Below the pieces are notes generated by a model. It ran no database searches. It saw nothing but the letters and a program-made list of their open reading frames with translations, and was not told the DNA's origin. The position numbers and the translations under genes are program-made. DNA of 64,000 bases from Pseudomonadota bacterium (GTDB lineage Bacteria; Pseudomonadota; Gammaproteobacteria; QQUJ01): NCBI GenBank assembly GCA_008501635.1, contig QQUJ01000017.1, forward strand, positions 248,001 through 312,000, written 5' to 3'. Below, piece by piece: positions 1 to 8,814 of the stretch. Numbering within the stretch: the stretch's first letter is position 1; each line of letters starts with the position of its first letter.

Positions 1-2
1 TA

Positions 3-617
3 ATGATCTTGCTCGTTCTCACGATGTTCGTTTCCCTTATTCTCGGAATGGGTCTGACTACCACTGCCTGTTACGTTATTCTCGCTGTGCTGGTTGCCCC
101 GGCCATAATCAAAATGGGGATCGATCCAATGGCTGCGCACTTGTTCGTCTTCTACTACGGTATGTACTCCTTCATTACTCCACCCGTCTCGCTCGGCGCC
201 TTCGCCGCCGCTGGGATCTCCGGCTCGTCGCCGATGGCGACTGGCTACATGGCGTGGAAGATCGCCCTCCCAGGCTTTATCCTTCCTTTCATGTTCACTT
301 CATTCCCGGCGATGTTGATGAAGGGATCCTGGCCGGAGATTCTCTACGTCACCACTACCGGCCTGGCGGGCGTGTTCTTCATCTCGGCGGCGACCGTCGG
401 CTATTTCCGACGGGATCTCAACAGGTTGGTGCGGGGCATGATGATCGTTGCTGGAGTCCTGCTCGTTCACGGCGGAATGCTGACCGACGTGATCGGTATC
501 GTCCTCGGTGGAGCCACGGTTCTCAGCTGTTACCTCCGCTCCCCCCACCCCAGCGAGGCCCACGCAATCGACGGTATAGTTCCAGCCGATGCACCTCAAT
601 CTCGTAACGACGTCTAG
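3..617 (+). CDS. TRAP transporter permease (DctM-type or fused DctQM), C-terminal part
   Basis: The protein enters from beyond the left edge, so only about 204 C-terminal residues are visible. They are strongly hydrophobic, with several membrane segments. A stretch with MAAHLFVFYYGMYSFITPPV resembles the conserved DctM region of TRAP transporters of the 4TM/12TM fused class. TRAP permeases import carboxylates or hydroxy acids with Na+ or H+, using a periplasmic binding protein that must lie outside the window. The gene ends 16 bp before a nadC-like gene in the same direction, so it is probably co-transcribed with the NPN cofactor genes. I infer, without direct evidence, that it imports the hydroxy acid used by a LarA-type enzyme. 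Confidence 0.8.
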   Translation: MILLVLTMFVSLILGMGLTTTACYVILAVLVAPAIIKMGIDPMAAHLFVFYYGMYSFITPPVSLGAFAAAGISGSSPMATGYMAWKIALPGFILPFMFTSFPAMLMKGSWPEILYVTTTGLAGVFFISAATVGYFRRDLNRLVRGMMIVAGVLLVHGGMLTDVIGIVLGGATVLSCYLRSPHPSEAHAIDGIVPADAPQSRNDV

Positions 618-633
618 AACGGGGTACAGGGGG

Positions 634-1503
634 ATGTCTGACAACGCCGGAAATCACGACCTTAGGGACGACATTTTCGCTTCTGTTATGGAGAGACGAT
701 ACATCGCAGAGGTCCGGGTCACTACCCCTGGATTGGTTTGCGGCGTCGAACTGGCCCGCCGCAAGGTGGAGGTCCTGGACTGCGAAGTGCTGGACGCCGT
801 CAGGGACGGTGCCGACGCGACACCGGAAAGTCCCATTCTTACGTTCACCGGCTCCGCCAAAGCAGTCGCCATGGCCGAGGATTGTGTGCCTGGTGCCATC
901 GCTAAGCCCTCGGGTATCGCCCGTGCTGCCCGCAAGGCCCGAGATCTTGCTGCCGGCAAGGTGCGTGTAGTATCCGGCGCTGCTAAAAAGATGCCGTCCG
1001 AGGTTAAGGACCAGGTCCGCAAGGCCGTCCATTGCGGCGGCGGTAGCGGTCGTATAGCCAACGGCCCCTTTCTCTATCTGGACAAAAACTATGTGCGCAT
1101 CTTCGGTAGCGTGCGCCAAACACTTGCTGCGGTCGCCAGCATGACCGGCCATGTCCGCGCCATTCAACTGCGGGGTTTGGTGGAGGATATCGCCACAGAG
1201 GCCCACACCGCTATCGAGTTGGGGGCTGAGATTCTGATGGTGGACACTGGGCGGTTGGATGATCTCGACTTGGTGGCATCGATAGTGCGGGAATCCGGGC
1301 GTCGCCCGTTTGTCACTATCGCCTTTGCCGGAGATATCGAGTTGGAAGACATCCCCAAGATCGCGACCCACGACGTGGACATCTTGGATATTGGGCGCGC
1401 CGTCATCGATGCGCCTATGGTGGATATCAAATTCGACATTATTGCGAAACGCGCCGCTCCTCGACAGGGCGCCTGCGACCCCGCTGACGCATCGCGTAAA
1501 TGA
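634..1503 (+). CDS. NadC-like phosphoribosyltransferase (quinolinate phosphoribosyltransferase family, divergent)
   Basis: This 289-residue protein has the fold order of quinolinate phosphoribosyltransferase, which makes nicotinate mononucleotide from quinolinate and PRPP. Visible signs are a GGGSGR motif at residues 135-140, DKNYVR at 150-155 where standard NadC has the KDNH motif, and a late barrel segment with AGDIELEDIP matching the SGNI.LENI region. Several active-site signatures differ from housekeeping NadC, so the substrate could also differ. The ATG at 634 follows a G-rich stretch. An earlier ATG at 589 overlaps the TRAP gene and seems less likely. The neighbours are NPN cofactor genes, which need nicotinate adenine dinucleotide, so a dedicated precursor role is inferred. 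Confidence 0.72.
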   Translation: MSDNAGNHDLRDDIFASVMERRYIAEVRVTTPGLVCGVELARRKVEVLDCEVLDAVRDGADATPESPILTFTGSAKAVAMAEDCVPGAIAKPSGIARAARKARDLAAGKVRVVSGAAKKMPSEVKDQVRKAVHCGGGSGRIANGPFLYLDKNYVRIFGSVRQTLAAVASMTGHVRAIQLRGLVEDIATEAHTAIELGAEILMVDTGRLDDLDLVASIVRESGRRPFVTIAFAGDIELEDIPKIATHDVDILDIGRAVIDAPMVDIKFDIIAKRAAPRQGACDPADASRK

Positions 1504-1631
1504 TCGAGCCAGCGCCTCCGTTGTATGGTTGCCTGGCCACCTCGTTTGGCGACTGCGTCGCCGGTCTCGTACCGGGGCTTGCCGGCATCGTAAGGTTATC
1601 CAAAGCGCAAAACATATATTAGGAGTTGGGC

Positions 1632-2447
1632 ATGTCGACAATAGAACTTCAGGCTCGTCTGTTGCAAGAATTGGGGCGGCACACGCGTATTGCCATCGCT
1701 GTTAGCGGAGGTATAGACAGCATGACTCTCGCTTTTATCGCACACCGTTTGTCGCCACACCCCGCGGCCATGGTACATGCTGTTTCTCCCGCAGTGCCAC
1801 CTAAGGCTACAGAACGGGTTGAGGCCTATGCGGCGCGGGAAGGGTGGGACTTGACCATCGTTGACGCCGGAGAATTCGCTGACCCCATCTATCGCGCCAA
1901 CCCGGTGGATCGCTGTTATTACTGCAAGTCCCATCTTTACAATCGCATTCATGCCCTGGTCCAAGGAACCGTCGCGTCCGGAGCTAATCTGGACGACCTG
2001 AATGACTTCCGGCCTGGTCTGACGGCGGCAGCGGAGCGCGGGATCGTCCATCCTTTCATTGCTAGCGGTATTGACAAGAATGACATCCGGGCTATTGCCC
2101 GCTGGCATGCACTGAAAGATATTGTGGACCTGCCGGCACAGCCCTGTCTGGCCAGCCGAGTAGAAACCGGTATCAGAATTGAACCGGCCGAGATGACTTT
2201 CATCGATCAAGTAGAGTGCCGGATGCGCGAGGTTTTAGGTGATAGTGCCACCATCCGCTGCCGCATTACTATGGACGGTGTTGCCATCGAAGTAGGCGTG
2301 GCGGAACTTGCCGCTGCAAAGGGCCAGATCGAGACCATTGCGCGACTGATGTGTACTTCCCAAGGTAGACCCTTCGCCGGCGTCAGGCCCTATCGACAGG
2401 GGTCCGCTTTTCTGAAAAATGAGGCGACGGCATCTGGGAGGTGTTAA
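1632..2447 (+). CDS. larE: LarE, ATP-dependent sulfur transferase for the nickel pincer cofactor
   Basis: LarE adenylates the pyridinium carboxylate intermediate and turns its two carboxylates into thiocarboxylates. This 271-residue protein has the PP-loop SGGIDS at residues 25-30. It also has Cys95 and Cys98 in RCYYCKSHLY and Cys172 in QPCLASR. Some LarE proteins sacrifice one cysteine sulfur, while others use a three-cysteine [4Fe-4S] cluster. Three well-placed cysteines make the cluster type possible, but this is inference. The ATG at 1632 follows AGGAG with 6 bases spacing. Its stop codon overlaps the larB start (TAATG). The 128 bp gap upstream may hold a secondary promoter. Confidence 0.9.
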   Translation: MSTIELQARLLQELGRHTRIAIAVSGGIDSMTLAFIAHRLSPHPAAMVHAVSPAVPPKATERVEAYAAREGWDLTIVDAGEFADPIYRANPVDRCYYCKSHLYNRIHALVQGTVASGANLDDLNDFRPGLTAAAERGIVHPFIASGIDKNDIRAIARWHALKDIVDLPAQPCLASRVETGIRIEPAEMTFIDQVECRMREVLGDSATIRCRITMDGVAIEVGVAELAAAKGQIETIARLMCTSQGRPFAGVRPYRQGSAFLKNEATASGRC

Positions 2448-3103
2448 TGAAGGATGTCGTCTTCGACTATGCCCGCGCAGCCCGCATCGGTTTGCCTGAA
2501 GCGGTGTTATGCGAGGGGAAACCCTTGGGAACACTGGCCGATCTGCTCACAACATTTGGGCGGGGCAGTGAGCATTCTGTGTTGTTCACCCGGCTGGCTC
2601 CGGAGGTCTTTGCTGCCCTTCCCGAAACGGCACGTGCGGGTGTTGATTATCATCCGCTATCTCGAACGGCCTGGGGTGAAATCCTCCCGTGTAAGCCCAA
2701 GGGAAAGGTGGCTATCGTTTCCGCTGGAACCGCGGATGGGCATGCCGCTTGGGAAGCGGCACGAACTTTGGAGTTTCTCAGGATTGAATGGACGATATTC
2801 GAGGATTGCGGTGTTGCTGGATTGTGGCGACTGCTGGAGAGGCTGCCGAAGATCAATGCCCATGATGTGGTCATCGTAGTGGCTGGTCTTGATGCTGCCC
2901 TTGCTTCCGTGCTTGGAGGCCTGACACCGCAACCGTTGCTAGCAGTGCCCACTTCCATAGGCTATGGGGTTGCCAACCAGGGCGAAACGGCTCAGCATAG
3001 CATGTTGACCAGTTGTGCCCCGGGCGTAGGCGTATTCAATATCGACAACGGCTATGGTGCGGCCTGCGCTGCAGCTCGGATCGTGAGGCTGCTATACCCG
3101 TGA
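2447..3103 (+). CDS. larB: LarB, nicotinate adenine dinucleotide carboxylase/hydrolase
   Basis: LarB carboxylates the pyridine ring of nicotinate adenine dinucleotide at C5 and cleaves off AMP, giving pyridinium-3,5-biscarboxylate mononucleotide, the first NPN intermediate. The 218-residue protein has the AIR-carboxylase-like (PurE-like) C-terminal half, with SAGTADGHAAWEA and a later PTSIGYGVANQG region typical of LarB. The ATG at 2447 sits 6 bases after GGGAGG. A GTG six bases upstream is possible but poorly spaced. It overlaps larE by one base and larC follows directly, so larE-larB-larC look translationally coupled. Confidence 0.9.
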   Translation: MKDVVFDYARAARIGLPEAVLCEGKPLGTLADLLTTFGRGSEHSVLFTRLAPEVFAALPETARAGVDYHPLSRTAWGEILPCKPKGKVAIVSAGTADGHAAWEAARTLEFLRIEWTIFEDCGVAGLWRLLERLPKINAHDVVIVVAGLDAALASVLGGLTPQPLLAVPTSIGYGVANQGETAQHSMLTSCAPGVGVFNIDNGYGAACAAARIVRLLYP

Positions 3104-3105
3104 GC

Positions 3106-3999
3106 ATGGAACGCCATCGCCATTCAATCGATCACAGCGATCATGCCCACGGATATGGTCATGGGCATTCCCATCACCATCATGGCCACTCCGCTTCCGA
3201 CCATCTTCACGAGTACGGGCGGGAAGTGACAGACCCAGCACTCACGCCGGTTCAGGGCAGCTTCATACTGATCCGTCCAGCCAGCGGCCTTTCTGGCGAT
3301 ATGCTGGTTGCTGGCCTAGCGCGGCTTGCTTGCGTGGAAAATGATGAGCTGAGCGCGTTCGCCGCCGGCATCGGGCTACCTGAGGGCTGTATCCGTCTGG
3401 AGCGAAGGGCCGTCAATGAGGTCTATGGCTGGGCCTGCCGGGTCAGTCTGCCCCACGAGCATAGCCATCGCACCCTGAATGATATCCGACGGATCATCTT
3501 TGCCGCTGAGACCATGTCACCTAGGGCCCGGCAACTGGCGGAGGTCAGCTTTACCCTACTGGCCGAGGCCGAGGGGCGGATCCATGGCATCCCCACAGAG
3601 GCCGTGACTTTCCATGAGGTGGGAGCACTGGATAGCATTCTCGACATGTGCCTGGCCTGTATCCTTTTCGATCGCATGGATCCGACCGAGCTGGTTTGCG
3701 GTCCCCTTCCGCTTTGCGACGGAACCATCCGATGCAGCCATGGCCTACTTCCGGCGCCCGCGCCGGCAGTGCTGGACCTGATCCAAGGCATGCCGGTCAG
3801 AGGAATCCCGTCTGAAGGGGAAACGGTGACCCCTACTGCCATTGCACTTCTGAAAGGCCTCGGAGCCAGGTTTGGCCCTTGGCCGTCCATGACCGTTTCA
3901 CGCACCGCTCTGGTCTTTGGGACGCGTATCCTGCCGGATGTTGCCAATGGTGCTCTCTTTGCACTCGGCAACGGTCCGATACGTACACTGTCGTGTTAG
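3106..3999 (+). CDS. larC: LarC1-type nickel insertion protein with His-rich N-terminus; LarC2 domain absent
   Basis: LarC inserts nickel into the pincer nucleotide in a CTP-dependent step. This 297-residue protein starts with 14 histidines among its first 35 residues, a likely nickel-binding or storage tail. The LarC1 core follows, with PASGLSGDM at 58-66 and a terminal GTRILPDVANGALFALG stretch that matches the end of LarC1. In Lactiplantibacillus plantarum a programmed frameshift joins LarC1 to LarC2, the CTP-binding domain. Here the frame stops and the opposite strand immediately carries nadD, with stops overlapping by 3 bases, so no room exists for LarC2. A GTG at 3100 overlapping the larB stop is an alternative start. 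Confidence 0.85.
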   Translation: MERHRHSIDHSDHAHGYGHGHSHHHHGHSASDHLHEYGREVTDPALTPVQGSFILIRPASGLSGDMLVAGLARLACVENDELSAFAAGIGLPEGCIRLERRAVNEVYGWACRVSLPHEHSHRTLNDIRRIIFAAETMSPRARQLAEVSFTLLAEAEGRIHGIPTEAVTFHEVGALDSILDMCLACILFDRMDPTELVCGPLPLCDGTIRCSHGLLPAPAPAVLDLIQGMPVRGIPSEGETVTPTAIALLKGLGARFGPWPSMTVSRTALVFGTRILPDVANGALFALGNGPIRTLSC

Positions 4000-4679
4000 G
4001 CGCTGGCCAAGGCTTGTCGCCATGTCTCGGAAACCAGGCTCCGGTGGGAGATCAACTCATCGAGGACACCCGTCGGAAGTAAGTGGCGAAGATCGCGACC
4101 GGCGAGCCATCGTTTCCGGACAAGGGACGAGCGAATCTCCAGATACGGTAGCGGCAGAAACAAGGCACGGCGGCCCGATCTGAATTCATAAGCGGCGGGT
4201 AGACTCGGTGGTGGATCCGTCTGTCGGCTATCGGGCCAAAAACGATCAAGGGTCTCATGAAATGCCGTCGGCCCAGCCCCAGAATTTCCCGTTATCAACA
4301 GATGGGCGAGCGATACGAGATAGCGCCCTCGGTACCAAAGATGAAGGCGGCAGAACTCATCCTGACCGACGACAAAAAACCGCTCCGCACACGACTCCGC
4401 CGTGGCTAGAGCGGACAGTGTCTGGTATGTGAAAGAAGGGGTCGGCAGTCGGCTCTCGATGTCGTTGACGACGCTCCCATAAAGATCATGCGTGGCGAGA
4501 CGCACCAACTCCACACGGAGGGCGTAAGGCAACAGGTCAGTCGCTTTTTTGTGGCCTGGCGAGAAGCAAGGGATCCACTCTATACGATCGAAACCCAAAG
4601 CTTCAGACGCCTCTACAGCGAGTCGAATGTGCCCGATATGGATCGGATTGAATGTTCCCCCTATGGTCAATATTCTCAT
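3996..4679 (-). CDS. NadD-like nicotinate mononucleotide adenylyltransferase
   Basis: This 227-residue protein belongs to the NadD family, which joins ATP and nicotinate mononucleotide to give nicotinate adenine dinucleotide (NaAD). The nucleotidyltransferase motif GGTFNPIHIGH is at residues 7-17, and the late motif reads EIRSSLVRKRW where NadD usually has ISST.IR. It is convergent with larC and the two stop codons overlap. NaAD is the substrate of LarB, so a NadD beside larBCE makes biochemical sense. Whether this is the only NadD of the cell or a second, dedicated copy cannot be told from the window. The usual nadD neighbours (rsfS, holA, proA) are missing, which favours a dedicated copy. 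Confidence 0.85.
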   Translation of the reverse strand: MRILTIGGTFNPIHIGHIRLAVEASEALGFDRIEWIPCFSPGHKKATDLLPYALRVELVRLATHDLYGSVVNDIESRLPTPSFTYQTLSALATAESCAERFFVVGQDEFCRLHLWYRGRYLVSLAHLLITGNSGAGPTAFHETLDRFWPDSRQTDPPPSLPAAYEFRSGRRALFLPLPYLEIRSSLVRKRWLAGRDLRHLLPTGVLDELISHRSLVSETWRQALASA

Positions 4680-5123: not shown

Positions 5124-5609
5124 TTGTACCCGCTTTGGAGGCAACAGCCTTTGGCTAAATTGGAAGGACTTCCCCCTCGACATCGGTTCATCCTCCGGAA
5201 CTACCAATCTGACGAAAATCCTCGGTTCGCGTACATGCTAACGCCCGTACTCTACAATCACTGTTTTGACGGGTTGTACCCCAACCTCGGATATCGAATA
5301 GGATTCGATCGTGAAGGGCGATTCGATGGATTTTCCATACTCGATATAGCAGATTCCATGAAAAATCTTTTCCGTGAGGCGGTAGAAGCTATTTGCGGGA
5401 AGGGGAATCCCGACGCCACAGGCGGTCTGACGCCCCCAATATTCACCATGTCCTTGGTAGACGGGATGCAATATAATTGTGAGGACTTCGAGCAGTTGGG
5501 ATCACAAGTCCGCCGTATGTGCTGCCCTAGCAGTGCGATCTCTTTTGTTTTTCCAGCATCTGGCTTCAAAGATCGAAGCGCCTTTTCAATGATACTTAGT
5601 CGGCCCTGA
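5124..5609 (+). CDS. Hypothetical protein, unrecognised
   Basis: This open frame codes for 161 residues with a fairly natural amino acid mix, including RNYQSDENPRFAYML and DREGRFDGFSILDIADSMK. I do not recognise a family. No clear signal peptide or membrane segment is seen, and no good ribosome binding site precedes the ATG. It sits in a stretch of broken mobile genes, so it may itself be a fragment of a larger gene. Treat it as a weak prediction. Confidence 0.3.
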   Translation: MYPLWRQQPLAKLEGLPPRHRFILRNYQSDENPRFAYMLTPVLYNHCFDGLYPNLGYRIGFDREGRFDGFSILDIADSMKNLFREAVEAICGKGNPDATGGLTPPIFTMSLVDGMQYNCEDFEQLGSQVRRMCCPSSAISFVFPASGFKDRSAFSMILSRP

Positions 5610-5677
5610 ATAACCCTGTTTTCACACCGCTACTATGGAGGTAGGCGTGCAGTCGGCCAGCCTTGGTTGCAGGGTGA

Positions 5678-6417
5678 TCATGTCGGAAAACCTGCTGGGC
5701 ACATAATTTCGGGCCGCCGGGCTGTAGAGCCACGATAAACCTCTTGCGACCACGCCAAACACTGGCCTACAAAAAACTGAGTCGCTTCAAGATCAGACGC
5801 AGATCGTGGCCGGCGCAGCACAACAGCGCATTCATCTAGGTGCACTCTTTGCCTTTCAGGCGTTTGCAGTCCAACAGCCCATCCGATTTCAGGTGGCCGA
5901 TGACCGGCTCGATGGCTTGACGATGCTTTAACGATCGCTTCAACCGCAGTGTGGTGATACCGAGATACACTACCGCTTGCCGCTCCCCGGTGTCCGCGGT
6001 AACCGCGATTGACAAACACTTCTACGATCACACCGCCCGTCATCCGCCGCACCTGTTCCAACGCCGTGACCAGCGTATGTCCAACGAACGTATTACCAGG
6101 TAGCGCGCCAAGCCGGCCGCAATAAAATTGCTCCGGTTGGTCGTGGCGATGCTCGCCTTCACATCAAACTTGTAGTGCTCGTGCACCTTAGTTTAGTGTA
6201 GCCCCGCCATCAGCCGGGTCAGCTTCGCCGGATAGCCGTTATCGGCGCAATACAGATCACCAAACACCGTATCAAATCGCTCCCAGTCAATCATTGCTGC
6301 GAGCCGGTAAAGCTCGTGGCACTGATCGAGCAGGTTTACTAAGCGGATACGAAAGAGGTCGGCGGAAGGGGATGACGCGGACTTCTTGGGGCGCATTTTT
6401 TGATCCAACAATTGCAA
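5678..6417 (-). pseudogene. Decayed IS5-family transposase
   Basis: Two minus-strand pieces together look like one IS5-type DDE transposase. The N-terminal piece (6193-6417) has LFRIRLVNLLDQCHELYRLA and MIDWERFDTVFGDLY, typical of the IS5 N-terminus. The C-terminal piece (5678-6061) has VEVFVNRGYRGHR and, in another frame, remnants of the final stretch about lysine-rich and HLK segments. Stops and frame changes between the pieces break it. No intact inverted repeats were found at the ends. Confidence 0.65.
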
Positions 6418-6539
6418 GCAATCGAGGTGTGATTATATAAAATCTGACATTTTGAAGCTGTCAATAGAAACAATATTATTTAGTGTATTCAGTATGTTTC
6501 ACTTAATTCTTAAGGTTTTCCAAGGCGGACTGCTTAACG

Positions 6540-8015: not shown

Positions 8016-8210
8016 ATGCTTGAAGAGCATGAGGCTATCAGGTCGGCCGTTCAGCAACTCAGGAGCGCTGCCAAAGAGTCGGGCCGCCAGGACATCGTGG
8101 AGTTTTGTGATGATCTGGGCGAGCACGCACGCTCTGAGGAGGAGGTGCTCTACCCCGCGGCTTTACTGGTAGGCGAGGTAGTGCGCCAGCACAGTTTGGA
8201 AGCGGTTTAG
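8016..8210 (+). CDS. Short hemerythrin-like (HHE) protein or fragment
   Basis: The 64 residues read like the middle of an HHE cation-binding domain: EEHEAIRSAVQQLRSAA, then FCDDLGEHARSEEEVLYPAA. His and Glu residues in EEHE, GEHARSEEE and VRQH could hold a di-iron site. Full hemerythrin-like domains are about 120-180 residues, and an in-frame stop lies four codons upstream, so this is short. It may be a remnant at the edge of the decayed region. The 195 bp upstream (7821-8015) hold no gene. Confidence 0.45.
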   Translation: MLEEHEAIRSAVQQLRSAAKESGRQDIVEFCDDLGEHARSEEEVLYPAALLVGEVVRQHSLEAV

Positions 8211-8358
8211 CGACCCGCCGTGCGCGGTGTAGTGCGGGGTTGTTTGTCAGCGAGACAGCCCCGCCTTGACTCCCCACTGGATGTCGATTCGCCGGGCTGC
8301 CACCCCCGAACCTCGGGGTGGCGGCGCTGGTGACAAAGACGGTAACGGGATTGGTTGG

Positions 8359-8814
8359 CTAGGGACGAATATAAGCCCAGCCCTCTTGCTGGCGCTCCAT
8401 GAGATGGACCACACCGGCCGGTACCACCTTGGCCGGTGACAGCAGCGCGATCTCCTGGTTCTCCTTCCTGCCCATTCCCTTCATGGTGTTGCCGCAGGCC
8501 ATGAACGAAATATTGGAGAAGTTCTGCGAAAAAGATTGGACGCGGTCTTTTACCGGTGACGTATCGGCGCGCAGCATGTGCAGCCCCGGGCCGTAGGCGA
8601 CGATTTCGATCTCCACCTCTTCGGCTTTGTCCTTGTAGTACGCATCCACGTTGGCCGCGTTGTTGAGCGTGAGATTCATGCGCGCAGGGTCATTTTCATC
8701 AACATGGAAAACGACACGGTGCACTGGCTGTGCGGCCTGGAGCGGCGAGATTGTCGCCCCAAGCGCAGCCAGGAGCAGAAGGGGGATCAGTAGAAACGAT
8801 GTGCGTGGTGCCAT
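8359..8814 (-). CDS. Exported DsrE-like protein
   Basis: The 151-residue protein begins with a clear signal peptide (about residues 1-27, ending near LQA). A DsrE/DsrF-like domain follows: VVFHVDENDPARMNLTLNNA, an EIVAYGPGLHMLR segment, and a single cysteine in SFMACGNTMKGMG. DsrE-family proteins carry sulfur or act as small oxidoreductase partners; this exported subgroup is of unknown function. It is a single gene on the minus strand, with a GC-rich hairpin (8299-8322) beyond its 3' end. Its presence fits an organism with sulfur metabolism, but does not prove it. Confidence 0.75.
   Translation of the reverse strand: MAPRTSFLLIPLLLLAALGATISPLQAAQPVHRVVFHVDENDPARMNLTLNNAANVDAYYKDKAEEVEIEIVAYGPGLHMLRADTSPVKDRVQSFSQNFSNISFMACGNTMKGMGRKENQEIALLSPAKVVPAGVVHLMERQQEGWAYIRP

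Follow-up and report, generated by a model that had tools for sequence, protein, structure and literature searches.

Which protein in this bacterium uses the nickel-pincer nucleotide (NPN) whose synthesis genes it carries, and why do relatives of NAD biosynthesis enzymes stand beside those genes? The locus in question occupies positions 634-4679 of a 64,000-nucleotide stretch of DNA (the window) from contig QQUJ01000017.1 of a Pseudomonadota bacterium, whose genome (G000; 3.93 Mb) is 98% complete. An earlier, sequence-only reading of the window had recognized larE, larB, and larC together with a nadC-like and a convergent nadD-like gene and had suspected a specialized, self-contained NPN set fed from quinolinate. 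The picture that emerged from our analysis is larger than that: a portable NPN system with a hidden client of predicted LarA fold, accompanied by an electron carrier and by three atypical proteins for nucleotide handling. We lean slightly toward explaining the locus as one half, the part that builds the cofactor, of an NPN system that is self-contained and was acquired horizontally. Its client would be OrfX, a remote LarA-fold protein, assisted by a ferredoxin/BFD protein and helper enzymes. LarB and LarE would make the pincer nucleotide and LarC1 would insert nickel, while the NadC-like, MogA-like, and NadD-like proteins would most likely act on the nucleotide moiety of the cofactor. The phosphate of pyridinium-3,5-bisthiocarboxylic acid mononucleotide (P2TMN) might, for example, be adenylylated instead of being cytidylylated by the missing LarC2; alternatively, the helper proteins might make a variant cofactor bound by OrfX. 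OrfX would most likely use the nickel pincer as a hydride or electron relay fed by the adjacent ferredoxin/BFD protein and act as a reductase, not a racemase. In the full catabolic clusters of other genomes, OrfX would likely transfer two electrons to 2-furoate, or to a comparable carboxylate with a five-membered heteroaromatic ring, and so open the ring reductively. The product, 2-hydroxypenta-2,4-dienoate, would be converted to pyruvate and acetyl-CoA by MhpD-, MhpE-, and MhpF-type enzymes.

The genes concerned are listed below; L010 coordinates become window coordinates on subtraction of 19000.

L010:11019-11930, minus strand, upstream of the window: MogA-like protein
L010:11920-12711, minus strand, upstream of the window: HpcH-type aldolase
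L010:13183-13923, plus strand, upstream of the window: GntR regulator
L010:13923-14534, plus strand, upstream of the window: ferredoxin/BFD protein, 203 residues, with a BFD [2Fe-2S] domain
L010:14537-15961, plus strand, upstream of the window: OrfX (predicted LarA fold), 474 residues
L010:15931-17088, upstream of the window: TAXI binding protein
L010:17147-17692, upstream of the window: DUF1850 protein
Window 1-617 (3' part; gene start at L010:17692), plus strand: fused permease of a tripartite ATP-independent periplasmic (TRAP) transporter
Window 634-1503, plus strand: NadC-like protein, a family-specific paralogue of quinolinate phosphoribosyltransferase (QPRTase), with QPRTase domains
Window 1632-2447, plus strand: larE, NPN sulfur insertase of the three-cysteine type, model score above cut-off
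Window 2447-3103, plus strand: larB, nicotinate adenine dinucleotide (NaAD) carboxylase/hydrolase, model score above cut-off
Window 3106-3999, plus strand: larC, LarC1 only (LarC1 model), with a His-rich N-terminus
Window 3996-4679, minus strand: NadD-like pyridine mononucleotide adenylyltransferase, near-cut-off NadD score

The five genes of the sequence-only reading are all where it had placed them. The first base of the window falls inside the fused TRAP permease gene, and the NadC-like gene is the next one downstream. Read toward the window, the run is GntR, ferredoxin/BFD, OrfX, TAXI, DUF1850, TRAP permease, and NadC-like; the OrfX gene thereby lies in the same gene run as the cofactor genes, about 3.7 kb upstream of them, and the divergent MogA-like and HpcH-type aldolase genes lie further upstream of GntR. 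LarE (236.7 bits, cut-off 150) and LarB (231.8 bits, cut-off 175; alternative GTG start possible at 2441) both exceed the thresholds of their equivalog models. The cysteines of LarE (CxxC...C, residues 95, 98, and 172) are those of the three-cysteine type described in PMC9283937, for which a [4Fe-4S] cluster is expected by analogy.

OrfX has no match to any Pfam family, and a sequence search against the PDB returned no match. Its likeness to LarA appears in the predicted structure: an AlphaFold model built from 13 relatives (mean predicted local distance difference test (pLDDT) 72, predicted template-modeling score 0.74) has the two-domain LarA fold. Foldseek placed LarA entries at ranks 1-4 (E 7e-7 to 5e-6), its only significant matches, and VIA-align matched 11 LarA entries with Z scores of 16.1-17.5 over 316-347 residues, the next entry reaching 6.5. 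Profile alignment of OrfX with the LarA proteins of the same genomes by hhalign was weak but colinear (E 0.0078 with eight sequences and 0.0036 with 22), and the larger LarA set left the register of OrfX unchanged. A Pfam search for Lar_N (PF09861) found no match in OrfX or anywhere in G000 at E 1, so that no conventional LarA was found elsewhere in the genome; the search for a larA homologue suggested by the sequence-only reading was thus negative at the level of Pfam, and OrfX, with its predicted LarA fold, is the apparent replacement. No OrfX was found on plasmids. From the fold, and from the genomic linkage described below, we infer that OrfX probably uses NPN.

A scan for the NadC-like gene, with one genome per species, yielded 20 loci (19 other genomes and G000); the resulting counts come from related sequences and are not independent events. 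OrfX is encoded in all 20 genomes, and 369 genomes sampled from the class to which G000 belongs contained one OrfX and one NadC-like gene, both those of G000. LarB exceeds its cut-off in 19 of the 20 genomes with the NadC-like gene (six of 14 control genomes), and a Lar_N protein is absent by Pfam search from five: G000, G003, G004, G005, and G006. The partners that accompany the NadC-like gene essentially always are the MogA-like protein, OrfX, and ferredoxin/BFD, whereas the NadD-like gene is present in only six of the 20 loci. In G004 and G005, the genes for ferredoxin/BFD, OrfX, MogA-like, LarE, LarB, and LarC follow one another without interruption on a single strand, and in L024, L031, and L034 larB and larC lie downstream of the catabolic genes, joined by larE in the latter two. 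A CbiM/CbiQ-type transporter, plausibly for nickel, is encoded between larC and larE in L034.

In each of the loci seen, the gene immediately upstream of orfX is that for ferredoxin/BFD. At L097:7264-9219, a single 652-residue protein combines Fer4_20 and Pyr_redox_2 with the ferredoxin/BFD part, which elsewhere is a separate protein; the Fer4_20/Pyr_redox_2 layout is that of NAD(P)H-dependent flavoprotein reductases. Taken together, this joined protein and the constant adjacency suggest that electrons pass from NAD(P)H to OrfX. We regard the proposal that OrfX is a net reductase as evenly balanced.

What the substrate might be is indicated by the clusters in Clostridia, Desulfovibrio, and others, in which the module is followed by genes for a 2-oxopent-4-enoate hydratase homologue, an acylating acetaldehyde dehydrogenase, and a 4-hydroxy-2-oxovalerate aldolase (MhpD, MhpF, and MhpE families), and in many of which a BenE-type transporter is also encoded. 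Addition of two electrons and two protons to 2-furoate (C5H4O3), with cleavage of the C5-O bond, gives 2-hydroxypenta-2,4-dienoate (C5H6O3), the first substrate of the MhpD/MhpE/MhpF-type lower pathway. This hypothesis was drawn from the chemistry before the UbiD proteins of the clusters were examined. HmfF is a furan-2,5-dicarboxylate decarboxylase, and its product is 2-furoate. The PDB entry closest to the cluster UbiDs of L023 and L025 (E 8e-165 and 1e-134) is 6h6v, which is PtHmfF (PMC8988006), and the scores of the cluster UbiDs against it are 552, 453, and 281 bits, compared with 194, 186, and 160 for the next family. They also retain the histidine that has been linked to the furan specificity of HmfF (chain position 296 of 6h6v, taken as H297 of PMC7976604). 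L017, from a genome with the locus layout of the window, likewise has a UbiD in the locus that is closest to HmfF. A furoate-type substrate in the MhpDEF clusters is a tentative proposal, to which we give somewhat less than even weight. The proposed route would share with the aerobic furfural/hydroxymethylfurfural pathway (hmfABCDE, hmfFGH; PMC6604932) the HmfF-type UbiD decarboxylase leading to 2-furoate; whereas the known route hydroxylates furoyl-CoA, the proposed one would be reductive, with a CoA-free ring opening ending in 2-oxopent-4-enoate chemistry. As a side observation, the Candidatus Tectomicrobia metagenome-assembled genome (MAG) G018 (L033, L096) has unusually many UbiD-family decarboxylases, with 46 matches to the UbiD query.

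The same chemistry might instead act on another substrate, such as pyrrole-2-carboxylate, thiophene-2-carboxylate, or a six-membered heteroaromatic acid. By chemical reasoning, reductive opening of pyrrole-2-carboxylate would also lead to the level of 2-oxopent-4-enoate after loss of ammonia; furthermore, a xanthine dehydrogenase-type hydroxylase is encoded in L029/L030, and the branch comprising G002, G004, and G005 has a gene context different from that of the MhpDEF clusters. However, the cluster UbiD scores much higher against HmfF than against PA0254, a pyrrole-2-carboxylate decarboxylase (552 versus about 103 bits), and the retained HmfF histidine points the same way. We consider this alternative possible, if rather on the unlikely side. 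Separately, a divergent OrfX branch (L018/L094 and L019/L095; 81-82% to L016) lies near genes for an AMP-dependent ligase, an ATP-binding cassette transporter, and a 2-oxoacid dehydrogenase, not near MhpDEF, and probably has another substrate.

Turning to the nucleotide-handling proteins, the NadC-like protein has the same two-domain QPRTase match across its whole length as NadC and ModD (Pfam QRPTase_C 1e-15, QRPTase_N 1e-8) and falls below the NCBIfam nadC equivalog cut-off (91.5 versus 198.4 bits). A housekeeping NadC with the classical DTRKT, NHR, and IKENH motifs is encoded on contig C18, and a housekeeping NadD on C10, between proA and rlmH. Because these copies sit elsewhere in the genome, the nadC-like and nadD-like genes of the window are paralogues, and the plain explanation that they are the housekeeping genes, which the earlier reading had named as its own refutation, is ruled out. 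Unlike NadC and ModD, the NadC-like protein shares with its 20 closest relatives the near-invariant signature KKxP..GG..R..PFxYLDKNYVRxFG, and in the genomes searched its gene is always accompanied by OrfX. The family was aligned with housekeeping NadC, whose numbering we use, and human QPRT. Positions R104, R138, H160, K171, and E198, which we take to be among those binding quinolinate and Mg-phosphoribosyl pyrophosphate, are replaced by D/N/E, A/W, a gap, D, and R/K, respectively, in 20 of 20 members, while K139, R161, and D221 are retained. As most of the quinolinate-binding residues are lost, the supply of nicotinate mononucleotide (NaMN) from quinolinate, as the sequence-only reading had it, appears unlikely, and the residue changes are most simply read as a switch of substrate. 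The protein may act on nicotinate or on a pyridine nucleotide made beforehand, and we assign it a nucleotide-tailoring role only provisionally, a little short of even confidence.

The MogA-like protein resembles in its fold the enzymes by which molybdopterin is adenylylated ahead of metal insertion. Its MoCF domain (residues 131-296) matches Mog with a Z score of 15.4, and it shares this domain with MogA/MoaB and Cnx1G-Cnx1E but scores below the equivalog cut-offs of MogA/MoaB-type models, has an additional N-terminal domain of about 130 residues that lies outside all fold matches, and occurs in the context of a nickel cofactor. In two Desulfovibrio MAGs (L022:3363-5156 and L023:1617-3428), the NadC-like and MogA-like proteins form one fused polypeptide. 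The product of larC scores 162 bits with the LarC1 model (cut-off 90), and its match to the 375-position Ni_insertion model is confined to positions 3-228. It has no LarC2 half, nor was one found elsewhere in G000, where larC is the sole Ni_insertion match. We take LarC2 to be the domain for the CTP-dependent cytidylylation step. NadD adenylylates NaMN, and P2TMN is derived from NaMN; the NadD-like protein, whose gene is convergent with larC and overlaps its stop codon by 4 bp, scores 110.2 bits (equivalog cut-off 112.45), carries the motif GGTFNPIHIGH, and aligns over its full length with the solved bacterial NadD 1yul. The NadD-like or the MogA-like protein could stand in for the LarC2 step on P2TMN; LarC is reported to transfer a cytidylyl group from CTP to the phosphate of P2TMN and only then to insert nickel (PMC11796402). 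In five genomes (G000, G001, G003, G004, and G005), the OrfX locus encodes both a LarC1-only protein and the NadD-like protein, and LarC1+LarC2 occurs in nine genomes without the NadD-like gene, which are all those where larC was seen. This pairing is consistent with replacement of the LarC2 step by the NadD-like protein and is a hint only, because the five genomes are two or three related lineages. G001 has two NPN synthesis sets, a canonical one with larB and LarC1+LarC2 (L163:6366-9034, contig C32) and a LarC1-only one in its OrfX locus (L015).

Could the NadC-like and NadD-like proteins instead form a dedicated NaAD line for LarB that spares the NAD pool, with OrfX as an ordinary NPN client? 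NaAD is the substrate of LarB (PMC11796402), the NadD-like protein keeps a full NaMN adenylyltransferase match, and housekeeping nadC and nadD are present elsewhere in the genome. Against this stand the loss, in the NadC-like family, of four quinolinate-contacting positions and of the acidic residue aligned with E198, the absence of the NadD-like gene from 14 of the 20 loci, and the conservation of the MogA-like protein as the partner, and we judge a dedicated NaAD line unlikely.

A second question is whether OrfX might be a 2-hydroxy acid racemase or epimerase, with ferredoxin/BFD having a different task, such as activating the cofactor by reduction. In LarA, we take K184 to be the NPN-binding lysine, H200 the nickel ligand, H108 and H174 the catalytic histidine pair, and D72 and R75 the ribose and phosphate contacts. 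In a hand register, LarA H174, K184, and H200 correspond to OrfX H193, K203, and H219, the intervals of 10 and 16 residues being the same in both; among OrfX relatives, K203 and H219 are invariant and H193 nearly so. The H108 position appears to be an invariant arginine (R129), so that the catalytic histidine pair would be incomplete, and D72 and R75 would be H89 and an aromatic residue. These assignments are leads and not results, because the hhalign register differs around K203 and the model is weak there. The structure that the OrfX model matches best (Z 17.5; identity about 12-16%) belongs to the system of PMC12393405, which also departs from the two-histidine rule; there the H108 equivalent is kept and H174 is replaced by Asn, whereas OrfX apparently shows the reverse. 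A racemase would agree with the LarA fold of the model and with the characterized LarA homologues, which isomerize 2-hydroxy acids (PMC11770544), but it would fit poorly with the apparent arginine at the H108 position, with a ferredoxin/BFD gene that is adjacent in every locus seen and in L097 joined to a flavoprotein reductase, and with an Mhp pathway context that requires no hydroxy-acid racemase; it seems to us improbable. That OrfX works without NPN, the lar genes merely traveling with it while NPN serves some other protein, would suit its very weak sequence similarity to LarA and the many genomes that have lar genes but no LarA (cyanobacteria, PMC11796402), but is quite improbable given a fold match specific to LarA, five OrfX genomes with larB and no Lar_N gene, and lar genes lying within the OrfX run in several lineages.

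Several points nevertheless count against an NPN-dependent OrfX reductase acting on furoate. The OrfX model is of medium confidence, with weak stretches at 189-198, 208-225, and 301-355, some of them near the expected active site; the hhalign probability is 5-9%, and its register does not pair OrfX K203 with the cofactor lysine of LarA, the H193/K203/H219 match being a hand register based on spacing. With D72 and R75 apparently replaced, OrfX might bind NPN in another way or fail to bind it, and a shared predicted fold is no proof of cofactor use. G015 has no LarB above the cut-off, and G002 breaks the pairing noted above, having a NadD-like gene together with a full LarC next to LarA. A UbiD is present in the cluster of only four or five of the 20 genomes, and an MhpD homologue is absent from G000, G001, and G003, which have an HpcH-type aldolase instead; the furoate route is therefore not directly transferable to the organism of the window, for which we consider a furoate-type substrate unlikely. 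Because of this absence, and of the different context in G002, G004, and G005, the branches probably differ in substrate. Finally, the explanation as a whole is computational. The full combination, in which OrfX would be the first net-reductase nickel-pincer enzyme, receiving electrons from NAD(P)H through ferredoxin/BFD onto a variant pincer made with the NadC-like, MogA-like, and NadD-like helpers and opening a furan-type ring anaerobically, is doubtful when all its parts are required at once.

Compared with the LarA/LarB/LarE/LarC system, the one described here shares the LarA fold (in the predicted OrfX), larB, larE, and larC1, and the genomic linkage of the client with the NPN genes. It differs in that OrfX lies below Pfam and NCBIfam detection and has a ferredoxin/BFD partner and an apparent arginine at the H108 position, and in that the window locus lacks LarC2 and has extra NadC-like, MogA-like, and NadD-like genes. 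Searches of the open literature on NadC with NPN, LarC1/LarC2, and anaerobic furoate ring opening (subscription journals were outside the scope) yielded no account of the system. In the literature covered, each characterized NPN enzyme isomerizes 2-hydroxy acids. The role of NPN in organisms with lar genes but without LarA is an open question, stated as such for cyanobacteria (PMC11796402), and OrfX is a concrete, testable candidate user for such genomes. If OrfX is a reductase, nickel-pincer chemistry would extend beyond hidden-hydride isomerization, and functions for the NadC-like, MogA-like, and LarA-like families could be assigned together. It could also provide the first genetic handle on anaerobic furfural/furoate degradation, for which two anaerobes are cited and further pathways are expected (PMC6604932).

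The suspicion of a self-contained NPN set gained support from the boundaries of the locus, which are two copies of a 716-bp direct repeat with 100% identity over 716 bp.

L010:9985-10700 (window -9015 to -8300): left copy of the repeat, bounding the island
Window 8016-8731: right copy of the repeat, bounding the island

The repeat overlaps a DsrE-like gene. The G+C content is about 0.61 outside the repeats and 0.52-0.59 between them, and the whole locus has the appearance of an island, about 17 kb long and recently acquired, that carries a portable NPN gene set. Such an origin is in keeping with a gene set that supplies its own cofactor, one for which the remainder of the genome has no use. 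Window 5124-6420, between the NadD-like gene and the right-hand copy of the repeat, contains short unassigned ORFs; those tried had no Pfam match, and they may be decayed mobile-element genes.

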